Of a DNA stretch of 64,000 bases, positions 640 through 63,604 are shown piece by piece (the stretch's first letter is position 1; every line of letters starts with the position of its first letter). The notes under the pieces are model-generated. The model ran no database searches. It was given only the letters and a program-made list of their open reading frames with translations, and was not told the DNA's origin. Source of the DNA: Arenicola marina (Eukaryota; Annelida; Polychaeta; Arenicolidae); NCBI GenBank assembly GCA_964019135.1, contig OZ025257.1, positions 41,805,798 through 41,869,797 of the forward strand, in the 5' to 3' direction. The position numbers and the translations under genes were made by a program.

Positions 640-3600
640 GTAGGGGTTAACCAGTTCGCATGTTAGAAGTCTAACCGATTCGCACAGTAGAAGTATAACC
701 AGTTGGCAGTGTGATGACCCGGTGAGACCTTCAGCTAATCTCAAATTGGCGCAAATGTCACAAAATTGAGTAAGAGTAAACACTTACTTAAATTGTTATA
801 AAATAAGCTGCAAATTCGATCGTTTCACGCAGACAGCCGGATGATAAATCACCATGACGTGGACGGGCAAACGTGTAATTTATTTGCAAGTAGTGAACTC
901 GCGTGCTCAAGCAGCTGGTCGGGTCATCGTTTAGTATCATGGCCTATCATTAACCCAGGGATTTCTGGGCCAGATTTAGCCATACTGTGCACAAATTCAG
1001 TCTAATTAAACCCCCAACCTTCGTGTCTGTTCTTCACCCACAGCATGGCGACAGCGTGCAGTTCCTGTGCAAGTGTTCGTTCCTGGAGATCTACAACGAG
1101 CAGGTGTTTGACCTGCTGGACCCGGCCAGCACAGGGCTACAGCTGAGGGAGAACATCAGGAACGGGGTCTTTGTGGACGGCCTGATAGAGGAAGCGGTCA
1201 CCAACGCCAGCGAGGCATACCAGGTGCGTTTATTAGTGATAACCACACAACAAGCTCTTTCCAGTTTTAATAGAGAGGCCTTTGTGGACTTGTGGTAGAA
1301 AGAACACTCGACTGCAGGTCAATGGGTACCTGGTTCAATACCGGGGCCGACCCGATAGCTCAGTTGGTTAGAGCGCTCTCGCCACATGAGAGCCTAACGG
1401 CAAGTGGATCGGTGGTTTGCACCTCGCTGTGGTCCTTAACGGCAAAGGGATAACTATTGTGGAAAAACTTCGTTTCTATACTTTCTTAACTGGAACCAAT
1501 TATAATTTTCCCACAGCTATTAACCATGTTAGGATATCGAATACATGTATTTGAGTAAATGCTGGGTGTGAGTAATAAATAAGCTATGCATAAACAATGG
1601 TTTCACGGACGGGCGAACCCCATACCATGGGACAACGTCAAGCGTCTTGCATCGTGTCACGCAATGTTGTGGGCTATAACCTCGTGATGACGTCACCCTC
1701 AGGTGCTGTCCTCGGGTTGGCTGAACAGGACGGTCGCCTCGACCTCCATGAACAGAGAGAGCTCGCGGAGTCACGCTGTCTTCTCGCTCCACATCGAGTC
1801 CAAGGTACGTCATCAACGCCGGCTGAATATTTTTGGTGATAAGGGAGCGGGTGTTGGAGCTAAAATCGGAATAGCTGATTAAATCCTTTCACGGTTCGTT
1901 GAATGTTTAACTTGTCCTATTAAAGTTGTTTCAATAAATGTGTGTAGCGTCTAAGTAAACGTCCGTGCGGGTTTCCATGGCATTAGTTCACTGATCCTCC
2001 ATGTGGAGTGATATCACGTGACGGCATAGTTGTATGTAATTGGTATGGTACCAAAGCAATGCACGTACGCAACGTCTCCCCCGTGCAACTTTTTAGAAGG
2101 CGTTTCGATCGATAGGTTTGATCCCCGCTCAGCCTCTGTATCTAAATCTGAGGATTATTACACGTGTTACTTGTCCCATATCGCCGATGGCCGGTGTCGT
2201 GTGGCCAATGCGTGCACAAAGGTGGCATAAAACACCCATGAAGCCTTCCACCCTCTGCAGGAGATGGTCAACGGGATCTGGAACATGCGGTCGTCGCAGC
2301 TCAACCTCGTGGACCTGGCCGGGAGCGAGAGACAGAAGGACACGCACACCACTGGCCTCAGGCTCAAGGTCAGTTACACACACCATTGGCCTCAGGGTCA
2401 AGGTCAGTCACACACACCACGGGCCTCCGGCTCAAGGTCAGTCACTTACACTCGTTGGCCTCAGGCTCAAGGTCAGTCACACACACCATTGGCCTCAGGG
2501 TCAAGGTCAGTCACACACACCACGGGTCTCAGGCTCAAGGTCAGTCACTTACACTCGTTGGCCTCAGGCTCAAGGTCAGTCACACACACCATTGGCATCA
2601 GGGTCAAGGTCAGTCACACACCAATGGCCTCAGGGTCAAGGTCAGTCACACACACCACGGGCCTCAGGCTCAAGGTCAGTCACACACACCATTGGCATCA
2701 GGGTCAAGGTCAGTCACACACACCACTGGCATCAGGGTCAAGGTCAGTCACACACACCACTGGGCTCAAGGTCAGTCACTCACACCACTGGCCTCAGGCT
2801 CAAGGTCAGTCACTCACACCACTGACCTCAGGCTCAAGGTCAGTCACTCACACCAATGGCCCCAGGCTCAAGGTCAGTCACACACACCACTGGCCTCAGG
2901 CTCAAGGTCAGTCACTCACACCACTGGCCTCAGGCTCAAGGTCAGTCACACACACCACTGGCCTCAGGCTCAAGGTCAGTCACACACACCACTGGCCTCA
3001 GACTCGAGGTCAGCCACACACACCACTGGCCTCAGGCTCGAGATCAGTCACACACACACCACTGGCCTCAGGCTCGAGGTCAGCCACACACACCACTGGC
3101 CTCAGGCTCGAGGTCAGTCACACACACCACTGGCCTCAGGCTTGAGGTAGGCCACACACACCACTGCCTTCAGGCTTGAGGTCAGCCACACACACCACTG
3201 ACCTCAGGCTCGAGGTAGGCCACACACACCAATGGCCTCAGGCTCGAGGTCAGTCACACACACCACTGGCCTCAGGCTCGAGGTAGGCCACACACACCAC
3301 TGGCCTCAGGCTCGAGGTCAGCCACAAACACCACTGGCCTCAGGCTCAAGGTAGGCCACACACACCACTGGCCTCAGGCTCAAGGTCAGTCACTTATACT
3401 CGTTGGCCTCCGGTTCAAGTTCAGTCACACAGACCACGGGCCTCAGGCTCAAGGTCAGTCACTTATACTCGTTGGCCTCAGGTTCAAGGTCAGTCACACA
3501 CACGACTGGCCTCAGGCTCAAGGTCAGTCACACACACCACTGGCCTCAGGCTCAAGGTCAGTCACTCACACCAATGGCCTCAGGCTCAAGGTCAGTCACT

Positions 3601-6600
3601 CACACTCACTGCGAGGCAACTATTTCTGCACTAGCTTATTTATCATGATTATCATTTGTAATGTCTTTTAACAAATATATTCGAAAATGGCTCATAATAG
3701 TCGCAAGAAATACTTTAGGTTTTATGAAGTAGATACTACGTCTACGTATCCAACATTTAACACATTTGATGAGGCTTCTTACTTTGGTTGTGTAATGATA
3801 ATAAATATCTGTGACGCAATATTCGTGACGGCCAGATATGATCAGCATATTTCCGTGTGCATATTTCCGTGTGGCTTTCTGTGATATCAATATCTATACT
3901 ACATATATATGTATATAATCTGTATAACCTTGACCTCTGACCTTGATGGTGCTGTCATGTTGTCCCGCAGGAGGCTGGCAGTATCAACAAGTCGCTGTCG
4001 GCCCTGGGTAACGTCATCATGGCCCTGGGGGACATAGCCCACGGCAGGACCCGCCACGTCCCCTACAGGGACTCCAAGCTTAGCTTCTTGCTCCGGGTGG
4101 GTACCAAACGTCCTGGGTGTGGCACAGGGGTCGGGAACGAAACGTCTTGGGTTTCCACAGGGATCGAGTACGAAATATCCTTGGGTATCCACAGGGTTCA
4201 GATGCGATACGTCCCGTAGTGTGCAGAAATAGAAGAAATAGAAGCTGGTCACTTGTATGCCTATAATTAGACATGTACTTAGTCTTATAAATTATTCTCC
4301 TTTAATTCAACGAATTGGTGTTGCCCTGTATATCCTAGCCATCATGATTCCATAACGATCATTGCTTACTCTCTCCTGTTAAGTCGACATGATTTGATCG
4401 TGCCAACAATAGCGTTTTTTTAGGGGAACAATTTATAATCTAGCATCAATGACTACTTTGAGTTTGTGATGATGTGACGAAGATGTCCTGTTTGTGCTTT
4501 CAGGATTCTCTCGGAGGAAACGCGAAGACCATCATCATAGCGTGTGTGCATCCTGGCTCCAGGTAAGCCGGGCTTACCTACTTAAAGTTGCTCATACAGC
4601 TATATTGTCCGTCAGAAATGGAATGGAAATAGTGTATTTAGGGCCTTAGTGTATACGTACGCAAACATTGTATGCAATAAGTAACACGGCATGTTGATAA
4701 GGCACTTTTTATGGTCAATATGGTGCATCTCCTGTGAGAAAGTGTAGCTTTCTTGTGTACTACGTCATCAAAATTCATACATTTTTTCCTGCCGTGTTTT
4801 GCCTTTTAACATATGATGACACATCTATGTCGTACAGAGTTAGCAGTCACGTAGTCTGACAATGTGTCCAGGATGTTTCTCGAAAGATTTTGATAATTAT
4901 ATTATATGTCGACAATTTCTGTATGAGCAGCTTTAAAAGTACATTATTAATATTGCTACTCTGTTGAGATCAGTCTACTGCTACTGTTTAGATCAGTCGC
5001 CGGGATCTAGCATCCCATGGCCGAGTAGGTAGCACACCCGGCTGAGGTCGAGTGTCTTCTGCCAGGCCAGCCCAAGCGGCCTGTGCGGGGTTCGAATCCC
5101 ACTTGTACAAATGGCTATGTGTGCAGGATATAAGTCCCATATCAAACTCCGCAAAGAGTCCGGGGTTACTGCCGGAGACGATGACCTCTACCGTGACCCT
5201 TCCTATTATCGGCGATATGATCTACAGAGGTTAAGCGCCCTACTTAAACCAAGAATTGTTGCCACTCATTCTCATGTCGTGTGTACTCCCGGTGTTAGAG
5301 CAACACCTGTCTTCATTGTATGTAACCGTGTTATATTCGTTGATTCTAACAAGTTCCTTTCTTCGCAGATGTTTTGGAGAGACTCTTTCTACACTGCAGT
5401 TTGCGCGGAGGGCGAAGCAGATAAAAAATAAGGTAGCGAATAAATAACAAATGTTGTAGAGCTTGTTACATTTAAAAGGATAAGGGTATTGCTGTAGTTT
5501 ATAGATCCTATGTTTAAAGTATACTTCAGTTCCAAAGAACATGTGCGTTAGAACGTATATTTAAAGTGTACTTCATTGCCAAACGTGTATGTAAGCTGTC
5601 ATTCAATTGAAGAACATGTGCGCGAGCATGTAACGTATGGTTCTGTTACGAAGATCACAAAAATAACTGGTTCTGTGATCTCCTGGTATGTAATTAGTTC
5701 CCCCTCAGTGTCCACCCACTTCCTACAGTCTGGAGAATAACCAGTTCGGCGTCACGGTACCTTGGTTTACAGGCTGTTGTCAATGAGGACATTCAGGGGA
5801 ACGTGTGTCACATGCAAGCTGAGATACGGAGACTGAAGGAAATGTTGCTCAAGTTCCAGCAAGGAGAGATACTACAGGAACCGTCCGACAACACTGGTTG
5901 GTACCAAGCCACGGGGTCTTCTGGCCAATCTGTCTAAGTTGATGTAAAGTTGAGTGAAATCGCCAAAAGTTGTTGTGTTGATGCAACAGTATGGGTAAAG
6001 GTTATTGTTATATTGTTGTAACTTAATATAGAGATACATTTTGTGCTAGTGTAAGGGTAACAATTATTTTTGTGTTAAAAGGGGTGTTAGTGTAATAATT
6101 TGTTTGTATTGCCAGAAGGGTAAAGAATACATATTGTTCTATGTATGTAGTTTAAAGATTATGTATGTAGTTTAAAGATTATGTATGTAGTTTAAAGATT
6201 ATGTATGTGGTGGTAAAGCTTATTTTTAGCGATAGAGCTACCCCGATGCATCCTTTCAGTCAGTGTTGCCCCTGTTTGTGTTAGACCCGCAGACCCGCCA
6301 GAGTCTGTCCTATGGAGAGGGCCTTTCAGTCAGTGTTGCCCCTGTTTGTGTTAGACCCGCAGACCCGCCAGAGTCTGTCCTATGGAGAGGGCCTTTCAGT
6401 CAATGTTGCCCCTGTTTGTGTTAGACCCGCAGACCCGCCGGAGTCTGTCCTATGGAGAGGGCCCTTCAGTCAGTGTTGCCCCTGTTTGTGTCAGACCGGC
6501 AGACCCGCCGGAGTCTGTCCTATGGAGAGGGTCTTTCAGTCAGTGTTTCCCCTGTTTGTGTTAGACCCGCAGACCCGCCGGAGTCTGTCCTATAGAGAGG

Positions 6601-9600
6601 GCCTTTCAGTCAGTGTTGCCCCTGTTTGTGTCAGACCCGCAGACCCGCCGGAGTCTGTCCTATGGAGAAGGCCTTTCAGTCAGTGTTGCCCCTGTTTGTG
6701 TCAGACCCGCAGACCCGCCAGAGTCTGTCCTATGGAGAGAGGCCTTTCAGTCAGTGTTGCCCCTGTTTGTGTTAGACCCGCAGACCCGCCAGAGTCTGTC
6801 CTATAGAGAGGGCCTTTCAGTCAGTGTTGCCCCTGTTTGTGTTAGACCCGCAGACCCGCCGGAGTCTGTCCTATGGAGAGGGCCTTTCAGTCAGTGTTGC
6901 CCCTGTTTATGTTAGACCCGCAGACCCGCCACAGTCTGTCCTATGGAGAGGGCCTTTCAGTCAGTGTTGCCCCTGTTTGTGTCAGACCAGCAGACCCGCC
7001 GGAGTCTGTCCTATGGAGAAGGCCTTTCAGTCAGTGTTGCCCCTGTTTGTGTTAGACCCGCAGACCCGCTGGAGTCGAGGGCCTTTCAGTCAGTGTTGCC
7101 CCTGTTTGTGTTAGACCCGCAGACCCGCTGGAGTCGAGGGCCTTTCAGTCAGTGTTGCCCCTGTTTGTGTTAGACCCGCAGATCCGCCGGAGTCTGTCCT
7201 ATGGAGAGGGCCTTTCAGTCAGTGTTGCCCCTGTTTGTGTTAGACCCGCAGACCCGCTGGAGTCTGTCCTATGGAGAGGGCCTTTCAGTCAGTGTTGCCC
7301 CTGTTTGTGCTAGACCCGCAGACCCGCCGGAGTCTGTCCTATGGAAAGGGCCTTCAGTCAGTGTTGCCCCTATTTGTGTTAGACCCGCAGACCCGCCGGA
7401 GTCTGTCCTTTGGAGAGGGCCTTTCAGTCAGTGTTGCCCCTGTTTGTGTTAGACCCGCAGACCCGCCGGAGTCTGTCCTTTGGAGAGGGCCTTTCAGTCA
7501 GTGTTGCCCCTGTTTGTGTTAGACCCGCAGACCCGCCAGAGTCTGCCCTATGGAGAGGGCCTTTCAGTCAGTGTTGCCCCTGTTTGTGTCAGACCGGCAG
7601 ACCCGCCGGAGTCTGTCCTATGGAGAGGGCCTTTCAGTCAGTGTTGCCCCTGTTTGTGTTAGACCCGCAGACTCGCTGGAGTCTGTCCTATGGAGAGGGC
7701 CTTTCAGTCAGTGTTGCCCCTGTTTGTGTTAGACCCGCAGACCCGCCAGAGTCTGTCCTATGGAGAGGGCCTTTCAGTCAGTGTTGCCCCTGTTTGTGTT
7801 AGACCCGCAGACCCGCTGGAGTCTGTCCTATGGAGAGGGCCTTTCAGTCAGTGTTGCCCCTGTGTGTGTTAGACCCGCAGACCCGCTGGAGTCTGTCCTA
7901 TGGAGAGGGCCTTTCAGTCAGTGTTGCCCCTGTTTGTGTCAGACCGGCAGACCCGCCGGAGTCTGTCCTATGGAGAGGGCCTTTCAGTCAGTGTTGCCCC
8001 TGTTTGTGTTAGACCCGCAGACCCGCCAGAGTCTGTCCTATGGAGAGGGCCTTTCAGTCAGTGTTGCCCCTGTTTGTGTTAGACCCGCAGACCCGCTGGA
8101 GTCTGTCCTATGGAGAGGGCCTTTCAGTCGGTGTTGCCCTCTGTTTGTGTTAGACCCGCAGACCCGCCGGAGTCTGTCCTATGGAGGGCCTTTCAGTCAG
8201 TGTTGCCCCTGTTTGTGTTAGACCCGCAGACCCGCTGGAGTCTGTCCTATGGAGAGGGCCTTTCAGTCAGTGTTGCCCCTGTTTGTGTTAGACCCGCAGA
8301 CCCGCCAGAGTCTGTCCTATGGAGAGGGCCTTTCAGTCAGTGTTGCCCCTGTTTGTGTCAGACCCGCAGACCCGCCAGAGTCTGTCCTATGGAGAGGGCC
8401 TTTTAGTCAGTGTTGCCCCTGTTTGTGTCAGACCCGCAGACCCGCAGACCCGCCAGAGTCTGTCCTATGGAGAGGGCCTTTCAGTCAGTGTTGCCCCTGT
8501 TTGTGTCAGACCCGCAGACCCGCCAGAGTCTGTCCTATGGAGAGGGCCTTTCAGTCAGTGTTGCCCCTGTTTGTGTTTGACCCGCAGACCCGCCAGAGTC
8601 TGTCCTATGGAGAGGGCCTTTCAGTCAGTGTTGCCCCTGTTTGTGTCAGACCCGCAGACCCGCCGGAGTCTGTCCCATGGAGAGGGCCTCCCTCCCGCCG
8701 ACTCTCACTGGAAGAAGAACTTCGTCCGAGCCATGTTCTTCCGCGAGAAGGCGGTCGTGGAGTTCAAGGTATGCCTACAATCCCTGGCCATCCCCAACGG
8801 TCCAGCTTCCATGTTAGAGCTCGTGAAATGTATTAGTGTAGTAAGATAAGATAAGATAAAGTTTTATATGCCGTCGGTATGTAAAAGTCAACGATAGGCA
8901 TTCTACGGTACCCCTGTTCTGGCCTGCACCCGCTACGCATTACAACGCAACGGCATTGCAAAGGCTACCATCATACATGCAATGATGCTGTGACTGACGA
9001 TGTCTCGGTCCCCAGGACTGCCAGGAGCAGGTGAAGAAGCTGGCCGACCTCTGTGAGAGGAAGGACGCTGCACTCAGACAGAGTCGCATGGTCCTCAAGT
9101 TCAGGGACGAGGCCTTGAAGCGGCTGGAGAAGGCACACAAGGACGACACCCAGCTCAGCGCGGACGACAAGGACGTGGTCATTGTGAGTACATTGTGGCA
9201 TTGTGAGTACATTGTGTCATTGTGAATACATTGTGTCATTGTGAGTACATCGTGGCATTGTGAGTATATTGTGTCATTGTGGCATTGTGAGTACATTGTG
9301 GCATTGTGAGTACATTGTGGCATTGTGAGTACATTGTGGCATTGTGAGTACATTGTGACATTGTGAGTACATTGTGTCATTGTGAGTACATTGTGGCATT
9401 GTGAGTGCATTGTGGCATTGTGAGTACATTGTGGCATTGTGAATACATTGTGTCATTGTGAGTACATTGCATCATTGTGAGTACATTGTGTCACTGAGTA
9501 CATTGTGTCAGCTCAGCGCGGACGACAAGGACATGGTCATTGTAGGTACATTATGTTGGTGTGAGTACATTGTGTCATTGTGAGTGCATTGTGTCATTGT

Positions 9601-12600
9601 GAGTACATTGTGTCAGCTTTGATTTGCTGTTTGTCCTGCAGGAGAGTTAAGAAACACCGATTCATTTTCTTTGATTTGCTGTTTGTCTTGCAGGAGAGTC
9701 TGCGCGGCGAGACGAAGGCCTTCCAGATGATCGTGGACAACCACCCCGAGGTGCGCAAGGCGCAGCTGCAAAACGAGGCGCTGCGGGCGGAACTGCGGCG
9801 GGTCAGGGCGCAGCGCGGCGTCCTCGATGTGGACGACCAGTACGCCGCGCAGCTGGAGAGGGACTTCCGGGAGCTGCAGGTCGAGACAGGTACGCCCTCT
9901 GGCGGGGCACTGCAGAACTACTGACAAAATAGCGCGGGATTCTGCGTAGCGTTTCAGCTTTGAGACTCCGTATAGCGAACGTTCGCGGTGAAATGTACAC
10001 CCTGTTAGAACGATGTTTTTTTTCCGCCGCCAACTATTTTCCTTCCCACAACGCCGCAGAGTATTTGTTTCCGGCGTATACACTGTCCAATTTACCATAA
10101 CTTAGAATGCAATTTATAAAAAAAAATTGATAGTGTAAATTATTGAACAAAATTATAAGTTGTATAAATAAATAAAAGGTAAATATTGGGTATAATTCTC
10201 GACCGCAGACCAACAGTTTACGCCTTTAACAAGATTGTTATTCTTGTCTGGGGCCCTTTCGTCCCTTCGTATAAAAAATGTCCCTATGGTATTCGTTGGT
10301 CCGCTGTAGGCCATGTGTCCACAAAGGTGGCCTAAACCACCGATCCACAGAACCATCACGGCTGTGATGGCGAAGGACAGTTGTCAACTGCTATTTAAAC
10401 CTATTTGGACCAAGAGTACGCGAACATTTTAGTCAAAAAGACAACTGAAACGATAAAATTCTGGCTAACATGGTTATAGCTGTCTAGCTCCTCTATCACT
10501 GGTCTCCTTGGTAACGGTTGCAGAGGGTGACAAGCGTACCCCGAGTCGCGGCACCCCGAAAGCCGTGGACAACAAGCTGGTGGCGGCCACCATTGAGAGG
10601 CAGAGGACCCAGCTCGGCAAGTTTCAGGCGGAGATTGATACGGTGAGTGGCCAGGTGGCGCTGTACACTTCTAGAGGGATGTGGTTGTCAGATTTGTTTC
10701 TACAATCTACAGGCGGAGATTGATACGGTGATTGGCCAGGTGGCGCTGTACACTGCTAGAGGGATGTGGGTGTCAGATTTGTTTCTACAATCTACAGGCG
10801 GAGTTTGATACGGTGAGTGGCCAGGTGGCGCTGTACACTGCTAGAGGGGTGTGGGTGTCAGATTTGTTCCTACAATCTACAGGCGGAGATTGATACGGTG
10901 AGTGGCCAGGTGGCGCTGTACACTGCTAGAGGGGTGTGGGTGTCAGATTTGTTCCTACAATCTACAGGCGGAGATTGATACGGTGAGTGGCCAGGTGGCG
11001 CTGTACACTGCTAGAGGGATGTGGGTGTCAGATTTGTTCCTACAATCTACAGGCGGAGATTGATACGGTGAGTGGCCAGGTACACCTACCCCCCCCCCCC
11101 CCCCCGCCCCCTCTGTGTTGTAACTGAAGCGCCATATGGCGCTGTACACCATTAGATGGATGTCCAGTTCCTCCACCATAAGCCGTGCCATAGCCCCCCT
11201 CCCCCTCTGTGTTGTAGCTGAGCCGTGCCATAACCTACCCCCCCCCCGCCCCCTCTGTGTTGTAACTGAAGCGCCATATGGCGCTGTACACCATTAGATG
11301 GATGTCCAGTTCCTCCACCATAAGCCGTGCCATAGCCCCCCTCCCCCTCTGTGTTGTAGCTGAGCCGTGCCATAACCTACCCCCCCCCCCGCCCCCTCTG
11401 TGTTGTAACTGAAGCGCCATATGGCGCTGTACACCATTAGATGGATGTCCAGTTCCTCCACCATAAGCCGTGCCATAGCCCCCCTCCCCCTCTGTGTTGT
11501 AGCTGAGCCGTGCCATAACCTACCCCCCCACCCCATCTGTGTTGTAGCTGAAGCGCCAGATGACCAACGAGCGGGATGAGTCCCGTCGGGATCTGATGGG
11601 CCGGACGGCCGAGCTGACGGGGCTCCGGAAGACGAAGGAGGAGCTGGAGAAGACGCTCAAGGCGCTCCAGGTCCGGTTCCAGGTGGAGCGGGAAACCAAG
11701 GACGAGCAGCACATGGAGACCATCAAGGTGAAGGTCGTCTGGGGCAATGATGCAGCGCTCAGGTGGCCATAGCGTTCGCCTTGAGTGCTCTGCCCACCTG
11801 AGAGCCTAACGGCACGTGGATCGGTGGTTCAAGCTCCGCTGCGGCCCTGGCCATGGTCGCAGGATCCCATGTCCTTCTTCGCAAAGAGTAGGGGGTTACC
11901 CCCGGGGACTTGGCTCCGCTCTCCCCTTTCTTCTCCCATTAAGGCGATATGACCAGAATTGGTTAAAGCCTCCTGAATATACAACCCACCAACGCTGAAC
12001 GGGGTCACTACGTGCTGTGGCCCTGTTGGCAGGGTTCACAAGCAGACCACGTGTGTGGTTCTACTACACGCCCCCTAGCGGTAGAACGTTGTTTATGGCA
12101 TCAGTGGAGTGCGGACTTCAAACCTTGATTGATCTTAAACATGCATATGAAGGAAGTCTTAAAAAAAAACATGTATAGATCTATAAACATCATAATAAAT
12201 TTATATAATACGTTTTGTTATGGTAGAATCACGTGTCATTCTTAAATTGTTACTGTTTCTCAAGTGCATCCTGGGGTAACTTCCTCACTCTTTGCGAAGA
12301 AATACAGGAGATCTCTGCCTCACTGCTATTCCTAACATATTTAACATACCTATAGGTTGGTTTGTTAGTAAGTTATATAAATCTATACATTATATTATAT
12401 GTATGATGTTACTTTATATTATATTACATTATGTTATATGCATGACATTATATCATTTGTATTACACTACATTACATGTATTCTGCCAGACCATGACGAC
12501 CCCGAAGAAGGCACGCTACCAGCTACGCACGCGCAGCGTCATGGGTCCCGGCTCTGCCCAGGTGGGGGGCGTGGACCCGGCGGGGGGCGTGGCCCCGGGG

Positions 12601-15600
12601 GGTCCCTGCAGCCCCACCCAGTGGGACATGGACGGGTCGTACGCCGAGGACAACTTCCTGGCGGGACAGGACATCTTGGATGAGTGTTCCGAGGAGCAAG
12701 TCGAAGGACTGGTGGAGGAGCTCAAGAAACTACAGGTGCGTCCCATCTTACCGCTGGCATATATCCTGTGTGTCAAGATTGTATGTCGAAAGTTTTCCTT
12801 AGGAAACACTCTAAGGTGAAATCTGACGACGATAGCTGGAGGCGTTTGACTGTTATTGCTCCTGAAAACAGACACAGACAAACATACCGAGCTGACCGAT
12901 ATATGACAACTTCGTTTCCGTCACAATGAGAGTGGATTTGGGGACATGTTACCAAGGAAACGCATCACGCCTACTCCGTTGTATTATATAGGGCCGCCCC
13001 GATAGCTCAGTGGGTTAGAGCGCTCGCCTTGAGTGCTCTGGCCATCTGAGAGCCTAACGGCACGTGGATCGGTGGTTCGCGCCCCGCTATGGTCATGTTT
13101 GTGTGGTCACAAGATAAAGATCCCATTTCCTTCGTCGCAAAGAGTAGGGGGTTAGCCCCGGGGACATGGCTCCACTCTACCTTCCTTCTCCCATTGAGAC
13201 GATGTAACCAGGATTGGTTAAAGCGTCCTGAATATACAACCAACTAGTGTATTATTTCTATTTGCGATGTCGGTTCGGTCGGTTAATGGGAAAGCGACCG
13301 ACTCAACCTTACCATTTATCCATCGGTCTCAGTCTCGCTTCAAACAGAGATAACTGCATCCAGCTTATCAAGGTAAAGCCTGGGGCCACAAACAAATTAA
13401 TTCAAGCGAACCAAGACTGATTAACAATAGTTTTGTCGCAGTTCTATCATCCAATACTGTATAATTCCGACAGGTGCATTGTGCCACTACTTCAGGCCAT
13501 GTCTAGAGAACCTGGGGACCCGTTTGGTAGTGGAGTTATTCCCTGACTGATCAGACACCGCACAATATGTATCATAAACATGATGAGAACTAAGAATGTC
13601 GTAGAGTGACATGTGGTGCAGAGCAGCGTGATATTTGATTTGGTTTGCGCATTGCAGGAGCAGAATCGGTACCTGCGCGCGCAGCAGGACACGATGGAAG
13701 CCAATATCATCAAGTCCGTGGAGGATACGTCACGGATTGAGGCGCAGAAGTCACAGCTCGAACAGGTACGCACGTTTTGATGACGTCACTGCATGGTGGT
13801 GTCTCGTGTACGGTAACGGTCGCGTCACCGAAAGAGGAATGGTTTCCTATGAAATTACTTATTCCATGAGGGCACAATTGTGCTTTCCAATGTTGTTTAC
13901 ACTATCTAGCCACTCTTTTATGATATCGCTATTTTGGTAGAAGATATCCTTCAAAGCGCCAGACCTAGACTACCGTAGAACCGCAGTTGCGTGTTTATGC
14001 GGTGTACAGTTCCAGGAGGCCCCGGGAGGCCGGCCACCGGGCTACTACCGTAGAACCGCCATTGCGTGTTCATGCGGTGCGCAGTTGCAGGCACTGACTG
14101 TCTTTACTATTGGGTTGTGAACGCACACTGCTAGCTGCCGTCCGTACGTTGCTTGCCCACCGCTGTTGATGTGCGTGTGACTGTGCTTTCTCTCCGTGGC
14201 CGCCGGTTAGCTGTACGGTAAGGACAAGGCACTGTGGGCGGACACCGTGAAGGCCTTGGAAGAGCGACTGGAGGCCGCCAACAGTGAACAGGCCAAGGCC
14301 GCCAACAGCAACCAAAGTGAGTAGTACATCGTCGTGGCGGAGGATTCTCTGTCCTGGTCAGCCTGCCGCCGGCGTGACGTCCGCTCTGGGCGTTACCACT
14401 AAATTACTCTCTGCACCTCCCCCCCTCCCTTCAACATGCCCATAGATGCAACCCCCTAATCCTGTCTTATGGAGGGCCGCCCCGATAGCTCAGCAGCTCG
14501 AAATGGGCGCCTAACGGCACGTGGGGTCGGTGGTTCGCGCCCCGCTGTGACCATGTTTGTATGATCGCAGGATAAAGATACCATGCGTTTTCAATAAACA
14601 ACAACGATGTAATCCCTGTATACATGCCACAGACCAGGAAATTCCTCATGAAATATCATAAAATTATAATGGAAGAGTCGTGGGGTAGTCATGTAATTAT
14701 GTTGCCAGATTGGTGTGGGAGCCATGTGTGGTCTAACCGCCCCCTCCTCCCCACCCCCTTCACCTGTGGTCGAATCCCCCCACGTGTTTACCTGTCCGCA
14801 GTGCTGGTGGAGGAGGTGGGCGACCTGTGTAGTCTAACCCTCCACGTGTTTACCTGTCCGCAGTGCTGGTGGAGGAGGTGGCCGACCTGTGTGGTCTAAC
14901 CCGCCACGTGTTTACCTGTCCGCAGTGCTGGTGCAGGAGGTGGGCGACCTGGGTGGTCTAACCCCCCACGTGTTTACCTGTCCGCAGTGCTGGTGGAGGA
15001 GGTGGGCGACCTGTGTAGTCTAACCCCGCACGTGTTTACCTGTCCGCAGTGCTGGTGCAGGAGGTGGGCGACCTGTGTAGTCTAACCCTTCACGTGTTTA
15101 CCTGTCCGCAGTGCTGGTGCAGGAGGTGGGCGACCTGTGTAGTCTAACCCGCCACGTGTTTACCTGTCCGCAGTGCTGGTGGAGGAGGTGGCCGACCTGT
15201 GTAGTCTAACCCCCCACATGTTTACCTGTCCGCAGTGCTGGTGGAGGACGTGGGCGACCTGTGTAGTCTAACCCGCCACGTGTTTACCTGTCCGCAGTGC
15301 TGGTGGAGGAGGTGGGCGACCTGTGTAGTCTAACCCTCCACGTGTTTACCTGTCCGCAGTGCTGGTGGAGGAGGTGGGCGACCTGTGTAGTCTAACCCGC
15401 CACGTGTTTGCCTGTCCGCAGTGCTGGTGGAGGAGGTGGGCGACCTGTGTAGTCTAACCCGCCACGTGTTTACCTGTCCGCAGTGCTGGTGGAGGAGGTG
15501 GCCGACCTGTGTAGTCTAACCCCCCACATGTTTACCTGTCCGCAGTGCTGGTGGAGGACGTGGGCGACCTGTGTAGTCTAACCCGCCACGTGTTTACCTG

Positions 15601-53660: not shown

Positions 53661-54008
53661 CACGGCCATAAAATATGCCCTAGCGCGTTAGGAGCCGTGG
53701 TAGCTCAACTTAAGTGGTTAAAGACGGTGTTAAGGGATGAGTTAATAACGGTGCCGTGACAAGTCCCAGCCAGCCTAACCGGGTGATGCTGGGGCAGGTT
53801 CATCGGCACGTCGCAACCCGCCTGAAACAAGAAAGACGTTTGATTGGTGAGCGAGTGAGACTACGAACCGAGGTTGTGAAGCGGGGATAAAGAGATGGGC
53901 AAGTTGTAACCTGCATTTCAGTAAAGGAGTCGTGCCCCGGTCGGAAGTTTTCAGAGAGCAAACCACCCCCCCCCCCCCCCCCTTGGCAAATTCCTAGATC
54001 CGTCCCTG
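53661..54008 (-). mobile_element. Interspersed element, copy 5
   Basis: Offset 647 bp from copy 4; the right end reads GATCCGTCCCTG in place of GATCCGCCCCTG. Confidence 0.8.
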
Positions 54009-54315
54009 ATATGATGGACACAGTGTAGAGGCTACGGGAGTTGTGTGTTATGGTATATGATGGACACAGTGTAGAGGCTACGGGAGTTGTGTTTTATGGT
54101 ATTTGATAGACACAGTGTAGAGGCTACGGGAGTTGTGTGTTATGGTATATGATGGATACAGTATAGAGGCTACGGGAGTTGTGTGTTATGGTATATGATG
54201 GACACAGTGTAGAGGCTACGGGAGTTGTGTGTTATGGTATATGATGGACACAGTGTAGAGGTTACGGGAGTTGTGTGTTATGGTATATGATAGACACAGT
54301 GTAGAGGCTACGGAC

Positions 54316-54986: not shown

Positions 54987-55346
54987 ATGTCTTCACTGGG
55001 CTCCAACTCGCGTGTCGCCCCTGGTTTGGGCTACACGGACCAGTCAAGCAAGGCTATTTCCACCGAGACCGCCATGTTGAATTCCCGATCCCACAGCATC
55101 TGCTACTGTGGCCAGTCACGTGGTTCAATCCGATATACGGGAGACCGGTTCCACCACTCGTCACCGCCGATCTATGGCGCCACAGTCAAGACCGGAAGTG
55201 ACGCAGGCAATGGCGCTGGTCGACCAGAAGGGGCGTCTGTGTGGCGATCCAGCGGGAAACAGAAGCTCATTCTGGCCTGCATCATTCTGTCCTACATGTC
55301 GTCATTCATGTGCTTATCTATACTGGCGCCTTTCTTCCCCGCAGAG
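54987..55346 (+). CDS. SLC18B1: SLC18B1-like exon 1: N-terminus and TM1
   Basis: 120 codons from ATG (AAGCATGTC context). Hydrophilic Ser/Thr-rich N-terminus, then KLILACIILSYMSSFMCLSI, LAPFFPAE. TAA at 54981 is in frame. Donor GTAAAT. Confidence 0.88.
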
Positions 55347-58300
55347 GTAAATATTATATTGAAAATTATTAAATTAATTTTATTTAAGTTAACATGTGAT
55401 ATGGGCTGGAGGCCTTAAGACACTGTTTCTTTAATTTTCTTTTACATATTACTGTATTTATGAGCCGTTTTGACGAATAAAGATGTCTTTAATTTAATTA
55501 ATGTTAATTTACAACATAAAGTTGAAGTTAAAATGTGCTATGTTATGTGTAAATGTTTGACTAGATGGTGTACTTTTTGTAAATCGGGGAAAAGCCTAAC
55601 AATAATAAAGAAATAGAAAGTAATAATTAAGGAAGGAACTATAACGATTAAAATTTATGGAGTTTTCTTTGACAAAACATACGAAGTAATAATGAATGAA
55701 ACTACATCCCGATCAGTAGAACTTCCCGTTCATTTTTAGAACATTATATGTGTCAATAGAATTCGGGCATATTAATTTCTGTTCCACTCTAGTTTTGAAG
55801 ACGCAGCGATTATCGAACGCATGTGTTTCCATGTTACAGGCAGCGTCTCGCGACGTCAGCGATTCTATTTCCGGTTGGGTATTTGGAGTATTCGCGCTGG
55901 TCCAGTTTTTGACTTCTCCCATAATGGGGCGACTGGTAAGTATTTTAAGTCGGTTAGGACAGACAGGTAGTTCAGAGCTGGTCATACAACAATTGTGCAC
56001 ACATTTATTATCTTTAATATAATTTTATCGAAATAAGCATTATTAAATTTATCTCGCGTTAAAGGGCATAACACGGTTGTAATGTAAAATGTTTGATGAC
56101 ATACTACACAGGAAATCATTGTAACAAAAGTTCTTACTACATGTATGTATCACACAAACCCATTCGCTAGGTGGAGCTCCGCTCCTCTGGTCAGACCGGG
56201 GGTAAAATTTCAAGCTTTTTGAAGGAAACCTTGAACTATTTAGAGCTTTCCTCTGATTCAGCTCAATACCATGCTTGATATGGTGATTGATGGTGGTTTG
56301 TTTTGAGCAGTTGCCGGTGATGGGTGCCAAGTACCTGTTCCTAGCTGGCCAATTCTTCGCGGGAGGATGCACTGTCCTGTTTGGGTAAATATTTGATGCC
56401 ATCATTGCCAGAATATAACCTTGACCTTGACCATGTGACCTTAACCCAATAAATATTGTAGTAGTTGCCGACTTCATTGGCTGTCTATCCCTTATTTCTT
56501 GCACGACCATATAACCACCGCTTCTGCTCAGTTTGCGATGGAAAATGTAATGTACATGTTTTTATATGAAATAAACCTATTATTATTAAAAAAAGAAAAC
56601 TATTGAGAAACCCACATATATGGTACTCAGTGAAGCGGGAGAAATGTGCATGTTTATCGGTGGGGTAGATAAGCTCGATGCTTTAAAAAATAACTTAATT
56701 TCAGGGCAACGCTTATATATATGCCCTATTCGCTATCTCAGCGTGCTCCCTCTGTCCTAACCCATGCCTTGTACCTAGATGAGGCTCGCCGACGTATGTC
56801 TGTGCCCCCTGGATCCAAAGTCTTGTCACCGTGTACAAGACTTTGTACAAGTTTTTTCCTGCATGTCACAGGCTGGTGTCGTTGTTTCCGCGGGGGGACG
56901 GCAGCAGACTCACCTTCATCTCGCTGTGCTTCACGTTGCGCATCCTGCTCGCCCTGGGCTGTACTGCTAACAACACCGCCTGCTTCGCCATCGTCACGCA
57001 GACCTTTCCCGGGTCCGCCGTCTCTGTCGTGGTCAGTAAATATATATACATATTATATCTCTATATAATGTGTTAGTAGGCTTACTGAAAAAAGTGACCG
57101 TATGTTTTAAAGAGGACGTATGAATGGGGTTTTAATTTTAATTTAAATTTTACATGCATTGTTTTTCTTGGCATATTTGCCATCGAAGATTAATCTGTAT
57201 TGTTTGTATGGTACACATACGAAAGGTGTACATGTATGTAATATTCGTCCATTTTGAATAGTTTAATTCGCATGTATATATGTGTAATGTGTATACAATG
57301 ATAGAGTTTCGAATGATAGGCCTCATTCATGACCACGGTTGCCTATATTACACTAATGAAGCCTTTGTGTAGATATTTATAACCTAAGCTCACACATTGT
57401 TTTCTCTTAGAAACATAAGGAAATAATTACCCTGGTGTATCAAGGTCTTTGCTGGTTTCCGTCAAGATATCGAAATCCTAAATACGAAAATGTTGTACAA
57501 ATTAACTATGAATCCCAGAGATAATTATAAAGTTTGCTAAGACATACAAGGTGGATTTCATCCTTCATATAAAAATAAGTATTCTTAAGACTGTAATCGC
57601 CAATTCACACTCTTTAGATACGGTTTGTCTCCGCACATATAGACACAAATATAGAAATTATTGAATTTTGTGCATTATAATTGTTTTTTTGGTGCTGTCA
57701 GGGGTTCATTGAAGCCGGCTCAGGCGTTGGACTGGCAATCGGGCCTTCTCTCGGAGGAGTTCTCTTTGACGTAAGTCCAACGACCGAACTATGGTATCAG
57801 AGATCGTATATATGTGATATCTCAGCCCAGGCCCGGTGGATGACAGACACCAAGAGCCTCGGGCCAAACGGGAAGTTCTCTCTGGTCTAATGTGTAAGGT
57901 GTTCGCCCTGGATGCGAAGGGTCGCCGGTTCGAATCCCGTCAGTTCGGGGTGTAAAGTTTCGGCGTCCATTCGGGCCTGGGACGAACAATACTACGCATA
58001 CTCTGTTGATATCAACGCCTTTATATGCGTGCAGGTGTGACAAGTTGCCCCGGGGTGCAGGGTAACACACGTTTGCAGATTCTGCTGAAAGCCGGGAGTT
58101 CTCAATATAATTAGTGATGTGGCGATGAAACTGATGGCTAGATGATTATATTTTTCAAGAAGTTATAAAATTAATTCAAATTAATCGTGTTCTGTGATTG
58201 CAAGGAGGGATCTTAGCTAGATGATAGCCAGGTGATTATTTAAGAGGACATTAAATTCTGCTAGAATTAGCTAGACGATAGCTAGATGATTATTTAAGAA

Positions 58301-61300
58301 GATATTACATTCTCAACTCCACTGAAAATATCGTTTTCTGTGGCTGCAGGTGGGAGGCTTAGATAGATAATTATTTATGAATATATTACATCCTCAAATC
58401 AATTGAATATAATCGTTTTCTGTGGTTGCAGGCAGGGGGTTTTGTCTTACCGTTCGCTGTGATCGGCAGTTCCATGTTGGTCGGTGTGATTCCGCTCATT
58501 TACATCGTACCCAAGGATCAAGGTCTGTACCCATCAAGGAGATAATAATTATTGCAATTCTATTTTCAACCATTTCGTTTTGGTTGTCAAGAGGCAATAT
58601 AATCTCAGTGATTACTCAGTGATGAACTAATTAAATGGTAGAAAATAAATGGTAAAAAATAAAAACATAAAAATTGTAAAGATATAAATTCGTAGCGAGC
58701 AATACTGACGTAAACAATACATAAAGAATGACTTAAACAATCGTGTTTTCTTTATATTCACGTCTGGTGTGATTTGAATTTCGATTGTGATTAACCATAT
58801 TGTTTGGCCTGCAGATACCACGGGGAGCGATCGGGCGGTATCCGCCTGCAGTCTACTCAGACAGCCTGGCGTGGTGGTGGTGAGCCTGTCTGTCGTATCC
58901 GGAGCCATTCTCTGGATCTCCCTGGATCCCACGCTTGAGCCGCACCTCAGACAGGTACGCCTCGAATTGGCCACCACCTTACCAAGTTAATATTTATTTC
59001 ATTTCTGAAGCCAAAAAATAATATTTTATTAATATTACAAAAAAATCGTTTACTTTTATTAATATTACAAAAAAATCGTTTACTTTTATTAATATTACAA
59101 AAAAATCGTTTACTTTTATTAATATTACAAAAAAATCGTTTACTTCGATTATAAAACTTTGTTTTGAATATTCATTGTGTTGCTATTTTTTTTAATATGA
59201 CTTATTAAAAAAATAATGTTACTTTTATTATAAATTTTGTTTTCATATTGCTTTTATTATAATTTTGTTTTCATGTTGTCTTTGTTATAATTTTGTTTTC
59301 ATATTGCTTCTTATTATAATTTAGTTTTCATATTGCTTTTATCATTTTGTTTTTCTATTTTTTTATTGTTTTAAATTTTATTGTTTCTATTTTGGCAATT
59401 TATCATTATAAGTTTGCAACATGTTGACAAATTCTGTCTATTTACAAAGTGACAGTGGGGGAGTGTTGCTGTAGAAAATGTAAGCACGCTAGCCAGATAT
59501 ATGTTCGATCGTAACGTAGGCGTAGCTACGAGACGGATCAGCGTCGATATTCAATTTTGCTTTACACCATACAATGTCAACAGTGCGTATGTGAATCACC
59601 TTTAAAACACACCCCAATAAAGTAAACTTTTTTTATTTAGTCCAGAATATATATCTATTTATATATATATATAAATACTTATGCAATGACAAACTATTGG
59701 GTCCAGGGCAAGGTATAGGTGTTATGCGATTCCCTCCGTTATACGATTCCCTCCGTTACACGATTCCCTCCGTTATACGATTCCCTCCGTTACACGATTC
59801 CCCCCGTTATACGATTCCCTCCGTTATACGATTCCCTCCGTTATACGATTCCCCCTCCCCGTTATACGATTCACCCCGTTATACGATTCAACCCGTTATA
59901 CGATTCCCTCCATTATACGATTCCCTCCGTTATACGATCCATCCCGTTATACGATTCCCTGCATTATACGATTCCCTCCGTTATACGATTTCCCCCGTTA
60001 TACGATTCCCCCCGTTATACGATTCCCTCCATTATACGATTCCCTCCGTTATACGATCCCCCCCCCGTTATACGATTCCCCCCGTTATACGATCCCCCTC
60101 GTTATACGATTCCCTCCCTTATACGATTCCCTCCCTTATACGATCCCTACCGTTATACGATTCCCCCCGTTATACGATTCCCTCCGTTATACAATTACCC
60201 CCGTTATACGACCTTTTCGGTCGGTCTCACTAACCATTCCCTGAGCATGTCAGTGAAACGGTTGTCAATTCCATTACTATGTGATTCGTGCAACATAATT
60301 TTATTTAAATTGTTTGTTTTCTCATTGCCAATATAAATACGCTTAAATCAAGTTCCAAAATACCACAGTCCAAGACTTCTGTATAATTGTCACTCTCCCA
60401 GCAAAGGGCGCTCGTTCCTTATATATAGAGCGTCATTGGAACGACCTCTGCCTGGAGATCCTATAGTTGTATTAGCCCCAGTGGGTAACATATGAAATGT
60501 GATGAGTTACATGTGTTATACGCTGTGTATCTGTTGTCCTGCAGTATAACCTATCGGGATCTATGGTGGGCCTCGTTTTCCTCCTGGTCGGCGGGATGTA
60601 CAGCCTGTTGGGGCCCGTCTGGGGCTACATCACAGACAGATTTGTAAGTACGAACGGTGTAAAGTTGATGAGGCCCGTCTGGGGCTACATCACCGACAGA
60701 TTTGTAAGTACGAACGGTGTAAAGTTGTTGAGGCCCGTCTGGGGCTACATCACCGACAGATTTGTAAGTACGAGCGGTGTAAAGTTGATGAGGCCCGTCT
60801 GGGGCTACATCACCGACAGATTTGTAAGTACGAGCGGTGTAAAGTTGATGAGGCCCGTCTGGGGCTACATCACCGACAGATTTGTAAGTACGAACGGTGT
60901 AAAGTTGTTGAGGCTCGTCTGGGGCTACATCACAGACAGATTTGTAAGTACGAGCGGTGTAAAGTTGTTGAGGCTCGTCTGGGGCTACATCACCGACAGA
61001 TTTGTAAGTACGAGCGGTGTAAAGTTGATGAGGCCCGTCTGGGGCTACATCACCGACAGATTTGTAAGTACGAACGGTGTAAAGTTGTTGAGGCTCGTCT
61101 GGGGCTACATCACCGACAGATTTGTAAGTACGAACGGTGTAAAGTTGTTGAGGCTCGTCTGGGGCTACATCACCGACAGATTTGTAAGTACGAGCGGTGT
61201 AAAGTTGTTGAGGCCCGTCTGGGGCTACATCACCGACAGATTTGTAAGTACGAACGGTGTAAAGTTGTTGAGGCTCGTCTGGGGCTACATCACCGACAGA

Positions 61301-63604
61301 TTTGTAAGTACTAACGGTGTAAAGTTGTTGAGGCTCGTCTGGGGCTACATCACAGACAGTTTTGTAAGTACGAACGATGTAAAGTTATTGAGGCTGGTCT
61401 GGGGCTACATCACGGACAGATTTGTAAGCACAAACGGTGTAAAGTTGTTGAGGCTCGTCTGGGGCTACATCACAGACAGTTTTGTAAGTACGGACGGTGT
61501 GAATTTGTTGGGGCTCGTCTGGGGGTATGGGGCTCGTCTGGGGGTACATCACAGACAGATTTGTAAATACGAACGATGTAAAGTTATTGAGGCTGGTCTG
61601 GGGCTACATCACAGACAGATTTGTAAGTACGAACGGTGTAAAGTTGTTGAGGCTCGTCCGGGGCTGCATCACAGACAGATTTGTAAGTACGAACGGTGTA
61701 AAGTTGTTGAGGCCCGTCTGGGGCTGCATCACAGACAGATTTGTAAGTACGAATGGTGTAAAGTTGTTGAGGCCCGTCTGGGGCTGCATCACAGACAGAT
61801 TTGTAAGTACGAACGGTGTAAAGTTGTTGAGGCCCGTCTGGGGCTGCATCACAGACAGATTTGTAAGTACGAACGGTGTAAAGTTGTTGAGGCCCGTCTG
61901 GGGCTGCATCACAGACAGATTTGTAAGTACGAACGGTGTAAAGTTGTTGAGGCCCGTCTGGGGCTGCATCACAGACAGATTTGTAAGTACGAACGGTGTA
62001 AAGTTGTTGAGGCCCGTCTGGGGCTGCATCACAGACAGATTTGTAAGTACAAATGGTGTAAAGTTGTTGAGGCTCGTCCGGGCCTGCATCACAGACAGAT
62101 TTGTAAGTACGAACGGTGTAAAGTTGTTGAGGCCCGTCTGGGGCTGCATCACAGACAGATTTGTAAGTACGAACGATGTAAAGTTGTTGAGGCCCGTCTG
62201 GGGCTGCACCACAGACAGATTTGTAAGTACGAACGGTGTAAAGTTGTTGAGGCCCGTCTGGGGCTGCATCACAGACAGATGTGTAAGTACGAACGGTGTA
62301 AAGTTGTTGAGGCTCGTCTGGGGCTACATCACCGACAGATTTGTAAGTACGAACGGTGTAAAGTTGTTGAGGCTCGTCCGGGGCTGCATCACAGAACGAT
62401 TTGTAAGTACGAACGGTGTGAAGTTGTTGGGGCTCGTCTGGGGCTACATCACAGACAGATTTGTAAGTACGAACGGTGTAAAGTTGTTGGGGCTCGTCTG
62501 GGGGTACATCACAGACAGATTTGTAAGTACGAACGGTGTAAAGTTGTTGGGGCTCGTCCGGGGCTACATCACAGACAAATTTGTAAGTACGAATGGTGTA
62601 AAGTTGTTGGGGCTCGTCCGGGGCTGCATCACCGACAGATTTGTAAGTACGAACGGTGTAAAGTTGTTGAGGCCCGTCTGGGGCTGCATCACAGACAGAT
62701 TTGTAAGTACGAACGGTGTGAAGTTGTTGAGGCCCGTCTGGGGCTGCATCACAGACAGATTTGTAAGTACGAACGGTGTAAAGTTGTTGAGGCTCGTCTG
62801 GGGCTACATCACCGACAGATTTGTAAGTACGAACGGTGTAAAGTTGTTGAGGCTTGTCCGGGGCTGCATCACAGAACGATTTGTAAGTACGAACGGTGTG
62901 AAGTTGTTGGGGCTCGTCTGGGGCTACATCACAGACAGATTTGTAAGTACGAACGGTGTAAAGTTGTTGGGGCCCGTCTGGGGCTACATCACAGACAGAT
63001 TCGTAAGTACGAACGGTGTAAAGTTGTTGAGGCTCGTCTGGGGCTACATCACAGACAGATTTGTAAGTACGAATGGTGTAAAGTTGTTGGGGCTCGTCTG
63101 TGTGGTGTGGTGTAACCGGGGTGAATTTTATGCGATCCAAGGGAGGGAGGAATCTATAAGTGGAATACAAATGCAAGATGTATATGTTGAGCTTCCGAAT
63201 CTCCCCACTGAACGGTTTCAAGTCAACGAAAGTCACTCCAACAGTACAACAGTACTTAACACTTTCCACCACATGTACGCAACCTCAAAACTCGCACGCA
63301 ATGTTGTGGTATTATGCATCACATTGGAGTATGGTTCGTTGTGACGCACCCAGAAATGCAAACTTGTTAACATTTAATATAAAGCTAACAATTTAGTCCC
63401 GAGTGGTGCAATCTTGCTTAAAATGTACTGGTATAACATCACTTTTGGATTAAGTCCGCTATATTATGCATTATATGTATATCGTCTTTTGTTCTTTTTG
63501 CTGCAGGGCCACAGCTTAGAGATGATGGTGTTAGGTTATGTCCTGTCCGCCGTGGCGATGCTTCTCTTGGGCCCCTTTCCCCTCTTCATGGAACCCAGCT
63601 CGCA
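54987..63604 (+). CDS. SLC18B1: Major-facilitator transporter, SLC18B1-like, 3' end beyond the window
   Basis: Nine exons join in phase to 395 codons plus two bases. Membrane segments by hydrophobicity: TM1 about residues 95-117, TM2 130-150, TM3 159-177, TM4 192-225, TM5 231-251, TM6 256-280, TM7 302-322, TM8 336-356, TM9 370-391; a full MFS protein has 12. Local matches to human SLC18B1 include SILAPFFPAE, GAKYLFLAGQ, LDPTL in TM7, and VGLVFLLVGG...GYITDR, the MFS motif before TM9. SLC18B1 has been described as a vesicular polyamine transporter; that function is family knowledge, not shown here. The ~92-residue Ser-rich N-terminus is longer than in the human protein. The start is supported by an in-frame TAA two codons upstream. 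Symbol confidence is lower than family confidence. Confidence 0.85.
55840..55935 (+). CDS. SLC18B1: SLC18B1-like exon 2: TM2
   Basis: 32 codons, phase 0: SISGWVFGVFALVQFLTSPI, MGRL. Acceptor CATGTTACAG, donor GTAAGT. Confidence 0.9.
56311..56384 (+). CDS. SLC18B1: SLC18B1-like exon 3: MFS loop and TM3
   Basis: Phase 0 in, phase 2 out: LPVMGAKYLFLAGQFFAGGC, TVLF. Acceptor TTTTGAGCAG, donor GTAAAT. Confidence 0.9.
56872..57031 (+). CDS. SLC18B1: SLC18B1-like exon 4: TM4
   Basis: Completes Gly, then LVSLFPRGDGSRLTFISLCF, TLRILLALGCTANNTACFAI, VTQTFPGSAVSVV. Acceptor GCATGTCACAG, donor GTCAGT. Confidence 0.9.
57702..57770 (+). CDS. SLC18B1: SLC18B1-like exon 5: TM5
   Basis: 23 codons: GFIEAGSGVGLAIGPSLGGV, LFD, the MFS G-x-x-x-G-P-x-x-G-G (motif C) region. 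Donor GTAAGT. Confidence 0.93.
57830..58075 (+). mobile_element. tRNA-derived SINE-like insertion in intron 5
   Basis: GTCGCCGGTTCGAATCCCGT is a perfect B box, preceded by CTAATGTGTAAGGTGTTCGC and followed by a body ending near GCCCCGGGGTGCAGGGTAAC. Not alignable by eye to the other SINE types here. Confidence 0.65.
58170..58431 (+). repeat. ~90-140 bp repeat including the exon 6 acceptor
   Basis: TCGTTTTCTGTGGTTGCAGG (real site, 58431) has an upstream copy TCGTTTTCTGTGGCTGCAGG at about 58331-58350, and a decayed one TCGTGTTCTGTGATTGCAAG at about 58185-58204, with shared TAGATGATTATTTAAGA sequence between. Confidence 0.75.
58432..58522 (+). CDS. SLC18B1: SLC18B1-like exon 6: TM6
   Basis: Phase 0 in, phase 1 out: AGGFVLPFAVIGSSMLVGVI, PLIYIVPKDQ. 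Donor GTCTGT at 58523. Confidence 0.9.
58815..58954 (+). CDS. SLC18B1: SLC18B1-like exon 7: central loop and TM7
   Basis: Phase 1 in, phase 0 out: DTTGSDRAVSACSLLRQPGV, VVVSLSVVSGAILWISLDPT, LEPHLRQ. The LDPTL motif matches human SLC18B1. Acceptor GGCCTGCAG, donor GTACGC. Confidence 0.92.
59023..59345 (+). repeat. AT-rich 30-bp and ~27-bp tandem repeats
   Basis: Four copies of TTTTATTAATATTACAAAAA plus AATCGTTTAC (59023-59146), then about four degenerate copies of TTTTATTATAATTTTGTTTT plus CATATTG (59218-59345). Confidence 0.88.
59720..60212 (+). repeat. 17-bp array of GATTCCCTCCGTTATAC
   Basis: About 29 copies with CCC/CTC variants, in intron 7. A single copy (GATTCCCTCCGTTATACGAT) also lies in intron 9 at about 63739-63758. 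Confidence 0.95.
60545..60643 (+). CDS. SLC18B1: SLC18B1-like exon 8: TM8 and MFS motif
   Basis: 33 codons, phase 0: YNLSGSMVGLVFLLVGGMYS, LLGPVWGYITDRF. The first GTAAGT donor (60644) gives the expected join to exon 9 (GHSLEMMVLGYV). The final 32 coding bases are the start of the 60-bp array. Confidence 0.88.
60612..63100 (+). repeat. 60-bp array of exon 8 end plus donor, about 41 copies
   Basis: Each unit: GGCCCGTCTGGGGCTACATC, ACCGACAGATTT, then GTAAGTACGAACGGTGTAAA, GTTGTTGA. The first part is the end of exon 8 (PVWGYITDRF), the second its donor. Fifteen donors at exact 60-bp spacing (60644 to 61484) stay in the exon 8 frame. A 19-bp insertion near 61525 shifts the rest. Open frames through the array on both strands come from the repeat, not from separate genes. 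Confidence 0.97.
63507..63604 (+). CDS. SLC18B1: SLC18B1-like exon 9: TM9
   Basis: Phase 0 in, phase 2 out: GHSLEMMVLGYVLSAVAMLL, LGPFPLFMEPSS. Matches the human CYMLLGPVPIL segment. Donor GTAAGT at 63605. Confidence 0.92.

Follow-up and report, generated by a model that had tools for sequence, protein, structure and literature searches.

Minisatellites straddling exon–intron borders recur along a KIF15 gene from a host outside Branchiostoma

In amphioxus, tandem duplications of exon–intron borders have been described under the name of mirages in Adh3, in the globin genes BflGb6 and BflGb9, in TnC, and in PGBD5 (PMC3087553, PMC3902484). As portrayed in these accounts, mirages occur on the donor as well as the acceptor side, have units of 10–160 bp, carry GT or AG in many but not all copies, and leave the protein apparently unaffected (PMC3087553, PMC3902484); one of the two papers further proposes that they can seed new introns (PMC3087553). 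The first-pass annotation of the locus treated here had pointed to splice-site minisatellites in amphioxus, and that precedent is real (PMC3087553, PMC3902484). Related phenomena have been reported in other organisms. Human segmental duplications are described as containing minisatellites with units of about 30 bp, some of them at exon–intron boundaries, that alter splicing (PMC2812944), and intronic minisatellites have been considered together with splicing in C. elegans (PMC4039745). Earthworm metallothionein introns likewise contain minisatellites; the account of them does not state whether they span borders. A human minisatellite with multiple donor sites is also said to exist, a tandem repeat like the present arrays but a single case. 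Among the matches listed from the open-licence literature, neither border-spanning arrays in a non-amphioxus animal lineage nor genome-wide counts were found, which is weak evidence of absence, with subscription papers mostly outside that scope.

The stretch of DNA analysed here, a window of 64,000 nucleotides, holds a dense instance of this known but little-studied kind of repeat in a host outside the amphioxus genus from which the kind was described. The window contains two genes:

501..29429, plus strand: KIF15 gene, 31 exons within the window, 5' end outside it, stop codon ending at 29429
55074..63604, plus strand: SLC18B1-like MFS transporter gene, 8 exons modelled, gene continuing beyond the window

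Joined, the KIF15 exons give one open frame of 4228 nt and 1408 amino acids without an internal stop. A search with its first 300 residues found solved KIF15 motors, matched across residues 1–268 (E 6e-126), and Pfam Kinesin. The transporter exons match Pfam MFS_1 and an Argonauta SLC18B1-like protein (41%), the best of five transporter matches being from a cephalopod. The transporter model lacks one exon or more in the interval 55935–56872. What it counts as "intron 2" is therefore a composite, and the array that the first-pass annotation placed in transporter intron 8 lies after the seventh model exon.

Tandem Repeats Finder returned 58 rows for the window, which merge to 40 loci: 26 in KIF15 (one of them wholly exonic), five in the transporter, and nine intergenic. 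Ten of the 40 straddle a splice junction when an exon overlap of at least 5 bp is demanded, with 6–40 bp of exon inside the array. Because Tandem Repeats Finder lengthens an array across whatever bases happen to match, microhomology at the exon-side seam is uninformative here. Seven spanning arrays lie at donors and three at acceptors, their units measure 16–142 bp, and they hold 2–46 copies. Nine of them fall in eight of the 30 introns of KIF15. Junctions are given below as the last and first bases on either side of the border:

2341..3611, plus strand: KIF15 intron 4 donor array, unit 34 bp, 37 copies, exon 4 donor at 2368/2369, 28 bp of exon
6252..8689, plus strand: KIF15 intron 8 acceptor array, unit 70 bp, 35 copies, exon 9 acceptor at 8649/8650, 40 bp of exon
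9178..9615, plus strand: KIF15 intron 10 donor array, unit 19 bp, 22 copies, exon 10 donor at 9183/9184, 6 bp of exon
10625..11081, plus strand: KIF15 intron 12 donor array, unit 85 bp, 5.4 copies, exon 12 donor at 10642/10643, 18 bp of exon
11096..11562, plus strand: KIF15 intron 12 acceptor array, unit 142 bp, 3.3 copies, exon 13 acceptor at 11547/11548, 15 bp of exon
14776..16253, plus strand: KIF15 intron 16 acceptor array, unit 62 bp, 24 copies, exon 17 acceptor at 16227/16228, 26 bp of exon
19133..19494, plus strand: KIF15 intron 22 donor array, unit 60 bp, 6 copies, exon 22 donor at 19160/19161, 28 bp of exon
22049..22818, plus strand: KIF15 intron 25 donor array, unit 16 bp, 46 copies, exon 25 donor at 22058/22059, 10 bp of exon
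26941..27172, plus strand: KIF15 intron 29 donor array, unit 114 bp, 2 copies, exon 29 donor at 26970/26971, 30 bp of exon
60606..63100, plus strand: transporter donor array, unit 60 bp, 41 copies, donor at 60643/60644, 38 bp of exon

The arrays share with amphioxus mirages a unit that spans the exon–intron boundary, occurrence at both 5' and 3' borders, and minisatellite size (16–142 bp). The host range reported so far, cephalochordates, is descriptive of mirages and not defining; the present host lies outside Branchiostoma, the one cephalochordate genus compared. The arrays differ from amphioxus mirages in host and in reaching up to 46 copies, and also in density: in KIF15 alone, eight of the 30 introns hold nine arrays between them, compared with one border each in the published descriptions of BflGb6 and BflGb9 and two in that of PGBD5. 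Length polymorphism and somatic instability also belong to the description of mirages, instability having been reported for amphioxus Adh; the present arrays are represented by one sequence. Undisturbed regular splicing is a further part of that description, and here the reading frame and the alignment to relatives fit splicing at the exon-proximal site. Intron gain by tandem duplication, as reported for Drosophila (PMC2891723) and potato (PMC4974935), is similar in that splice sites are likewise supplied by duplication, yet those cases concern new introns, while at this locus the additional copies sit in introns that are old. Tandem repeats can also carry dual-specific splice sites, of which a copy serves as donor and acceptor alike. 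Such repeats, for which polyubiquitin is an example, are described as AG/GT arrays in which the repeat is the coding unit (PMC10809524); unlike these, the copies at the present locus are intronic, and just two arrays, those at the intron 4 and intron 29 donors, have AG/GT in the unit consensus.

Judged from its proteins, the host is outside Branchiostoma, because Branchiostoma proteins would otherwise be near-identical to the window's KIF15. Three Branchiostoma KIF15 proteins share 37% identity with it over 94% of its length, and the B. lanceolatum protein is 89–91% identical to the other two. The host is likely, although not securely, spiralian. A quick tree, which carried a long-branch warning, placed the window protein outside all named rows and beside one other protein; a mixture-model tree from which that neighbour was omitted groups the window KIF15 with molluscs and a nemertean (98/95), and an AU test, chosen after the first tree was known, rejects a grouping with Branchiostoma (p 0.0087). 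Several observations weigh against a secure placement. The KIF15 branch in the mixture-model tree is very long, at 1.5 changes per column, and the amino-acid make-up of the protein is unusual. The trees were built from 34 and 22 hand-picked members of a set of 121 KIF15 proteins and are without annelid, brachiopod, or arthropod KIF15. Among the tree proteins the highest whole-length identity is that of an octocoral (40%). For the 270-residue motor domain alone the top identity is to Branchiostoma (81.5% vs 79.3% for Patella and Solemya), and by bit score Patella and Solemya stand above B. lanceolatum. No close KIF15 relative appeared among the best 120 matches listed in one search, and a coiled-coil search for such a relative gave three proteins, none of them close; both searches scored only candidates sharing most words.

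Border placement in KIF15 occurs at about two to three times the random frequency, beyond the effect of base composition. The placement tests represented every array by a single unit and gave it random positions, never wholly inside an exon, with the locus in exon 14 (12564–12602) and the nine intergenic loci omitted. Nine of the 25 intronic arrays of KIF15 span a junction against 2.79 expected at random (P 0.0007; 0.0005 with another seed). Given that exons of this gene are GC-richer than its introns (61% vs 49%), the test was repeated with GC matched, giving an expectation of 3.99 (P 0.002). At overlap thresholds of 3, 5, and 8 bp, 9, 9, and 8 of the 25 arrays span (P 0.0015 or less), and among KIF15 units of 30 bp or more seven of 12 span against 1.87 expected. 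The transporter alone has one spanning array in five against 0.31 expected, which is not significant (P 0.28). Ten of the 14 arrays with a score of at least 300 span a junction and none of the 16 below it does, the cut of 300 having been set after the table was known; about 0.6 spanning arrays would be expected among the 13 low-score arrays in KIF15. All these figures come from one locus with two genes, picked in the first pass as striking.

The first-pass annotation had envisaged a recurring process that starts at exon borders. A greater number of arrays at borders than random placement gives is borne out in KIF15. The idea of a start there is not: the exon share of the unit ranges from 0.11 to 0.82 and fits a uniform distribution (KS p 0.40, n=10), and therefore the duplicated segments straddle borders and do not begin at them. 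As for the weaker arrays said to adjoin donors or acceptors in six or more further introns, their closeness to junctions does not clearly exceed that of random placement, the 20 non-spanning arrays having a median junction distance of 60.5 bp vs 85 bp simulated (P 0.076), with four within 10 bp of a junction vs 1.3 expected (P 0.039).

The arrays are independent of one another. All 37 modelled introns were searched for 20–24-base pieces centred on the 74 junctions. Of these, 11 junctions had an echo in their own intron, and none of 2664 comparisons gave one in another intron. One mobile unit within both genes is therefore excluded, in keeping with the earlier suggestion of separate local events. 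The donor of intron 29 falls outside these 11, since the donor in its single copy is altered. Two of the 11 echoes are non-tandem, with one or two separate copies, at the acceptor of KIF15 intron 10 and at that of transporter model intron 4. The former is:

9618..9699, plus strand: separate non-tandem echo of the KIF15 exon 11 acceptor (9693/9694), one copy, at 9618–9647

In transporter model intron 4, dispersed acceptor echoes lie at 58190 and 58336. Together with that of KIF15 intron 10 they are perhaps remnants of older arrays.

All ten arrays named in the first-pass annotation are present, although the splice site is not kept in every copy. Of the 214 non-authentic copies, 197 retain GT or AG. 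In the KIF15 intron 12 acceptor array the junction column reads AA instead of AG in three of three copies, and in the intron 22 donor array GT is kept in two of five; in both, the unit consensus itself is without the splice site. Substitutions relative to the array consensus, counted with the authentic copies omitted, amount to 275/5419 (5.1%) in exon columns, 119/3874 (3.1%) in intron columns, and 14/428 (3.3%) at the splice dinucleotides, or 12/412 when the two site-lacking arrays are removed. By array, exon columns diverge less than intron columns in five cases of ten, more in four, and equally in one. Extra preservation of, or selection on, exon-edge sequence in the copies, as first supposed, thus finds no consistent support in these counts, and neither does special constraint on decoy dinucleotides. 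Decoys are not clearly removed either, apart from the exceptions at the intron 12 acceptor and the intron 22 donor.

Eight of the spanning arrays hold five or more copies, and in these the mean pairwise divergence between copies is 3–15%. Growth of these arrays from the exon end finds no support, as their full units are without polarity; flat divergence along full units fits unequal exchange or conversion. Weak trends with distance do appear in junction 20-mers at intron 4 (rho 0.34, p 0.045) and intron 25 (rho 0.39, p 0.011), and the non-spanning array at 26599 has a clear polarity (rho 0.87). Fold-prone units are likewise unsupported as a cause, the single-strand DNA folds of nine of the ten unit types (142-bp unit omitted, 16-bp unit folded as a dimer) being not unusual (z -1.66 to +0.68). 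Sense-strand G skew is positive in eight of the ten spanning units, in one of them by just 0.02, which is too little to argue for R-loops.

With so many copies of splice sites at hand, the question of which is used becomes central. A weight matrix was built from the 38 donors and 38 acceptors of the two gene models, authentic sites included; by this measure 123 of 216 copies equal or exceed the authentic site. Consequently strength alone cannot decide among them, and position probably selects the site. If the exon-proximal site is taken, the KIF15 protein shows no insertion at junctions 4, 10, 12, 16, and 22 relative to five inspected relatives from an alignment of 15; two of these five have a one-residue gap ten residues upstream of junction 10. 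At junctions 8, 25, and 29 relatives align poorly, and exon-proximal use there is argued from the reading frame alone. The transporter protein aligns across its array junction. In that array the coding frame is open for 852 codons with 0 stops, even though the array contains a 19-bp phase shift. Its openness is not special, however, as the unit has a second stop-free phase, which meets 2 stops in one half of the array and 0 in the other; a preserved reading frame or selected isoforms therefore find no support here. The KIF15 intron 4 array has two stops in the coding frame and three in each of the other frames. Nor is there support for cryptic microexons within the array at the intron 12 donor, where acceptor scores of 1.3–3.2 fall below 5.9, the 10th percentile of KIF15 sites.

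Each array, then, is a separate local tandem repeat of a 16–142 bp segment astride one border, with the copies on the intron side. The reading that we favour, at a probability of about 0.68, is that these are minisatellites of the mirage type, in which border-straddling duplication recurs, is tolerated through exon-proximal splicing, and is followed by array growth. Duplications would arise through replication slippage or unequal exchange; they would persist since the spliceosome keeps to the exon-proximal donor or acceptor and the protein stays unchanged; and the arrays would then expand to 2–46 copies, homogenised by unequal exchange or gene conversion. The border excess in KIF15 may reflect mutation bias, for example through transcription- or splicing-linked breaks, or else arrays at borders may survive better. 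The absence of spanning arrays among the 16 of low score (<300) is not predicted by plain slippage and counts against this explanation, although few were expected among those in KIF15.

The strongest competitor, unlikely as it seems on the whole, holds that duplications occur anywhere, that exonic ones are purged while those at borders survive, and that KIF15 is merely an array-rich gene that happened to be picked. The locus was indeed chosen for its striking look, the GC-matched expectation already stands at 4.0 of 25, the exon share of units looks uniform, and the transporter is without a significant excess (1 vs 0.31, P 0.28); yet nine spanning arrays are observed, at P 0.002 with GC matched and at P 0.00005 for the 12 large arrays. 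Considerably less probable is selection that keeps the copies as splice decoys, spare sites, dual-specific AG/GT sites, or alternative protein segments. The retention of GT or AG in 197 of 214 copies and the 852 stop-free codons of the transporter array would suit it, as would the enrichment of dual-specific AG/GT sites reported for human tandem-repeat genes (PMC10809524). Against it, the splice dinucleotides vary like intron columns (3.3% vs 3.1%) and exon columns vary no less overall (5.1%), the openness of the transporter array is not special given the 2 and 0 stops of its other phase, the coding frame is interrupted by two stops in the intron 4 array (three and three in the other frames), and the copies at the intron 12 acceptor are without AG.

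An assembly artefact, with repeats inflated or misjoined, is more improbable again: copy numbers of the amphioxus PGBD5 arrays did vary between assembly versions, according to PMC3902484, but the present copies differ by 3–15% on average (eight arrays), at ten unrelated sites, and the flanking coding exons are intact. Least credible of all are mobile introns or transposon-borne splice sites of the introner kind. Sharp unit edges adjoining splice sites recall them, but the same sequence at many intron borders, which marks introners, is not found within the two genes (0/2664 cross-intron echoes), and unit lengths and sequences are unrelated; for these arrays within the window the idea is refuted.

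It would be tentative to conclude, and we hold it slightly less probable than its contrary, that border-straddling minisatellites are not an amphioxus peculiarity and that a recurrent, border-biased mutational process acts also in a distant, perhaps spiralian, lineage, able to leave decoy sites, with no apparent harm, in eight of a single gene's 30 introns and so furnishing standing material for intron shifts and new exons. The matter bears on the origin of new intron positions. Should a border excess hold genome-wide, in this lineage as well as in amphioxus, it would suggest that local duplication of DNA is generally tied to splicing or transcription at borders, and it would offer a natural test of how the spliceosome chooses among dozens of near-equal sites. 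More immediately, border arrays can create false exons, which is a warning for gene prediction.

Several minor features of the window complete its description. ARAGORN returned 0 tRNA genes on the window, Rfam gave 0 matches at gathering scores, and the open reading frame at 32439–32720 had no match in Pfam. An 18-bp repeat at 12564–12602 inside KIF15 exon 14 is the sole array wholly within an exon. Stretches at about 1390–1453, at 11785–11952, and at 13050–13247 are mutually similar, dispersed, and perhaps SINE-like, as judged by eye from the texts of the open reading frames. Between the two genes lies a 46-bp satellite that occupies about 20 kb (34516–54313), with some 359 copies up to 51111. 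On its 3' side, five blocks of 5.6–6.6 copies alternate with spacers of about 350 bp, which are 97–99% alike, giving a higher-order period of about 650 bp.
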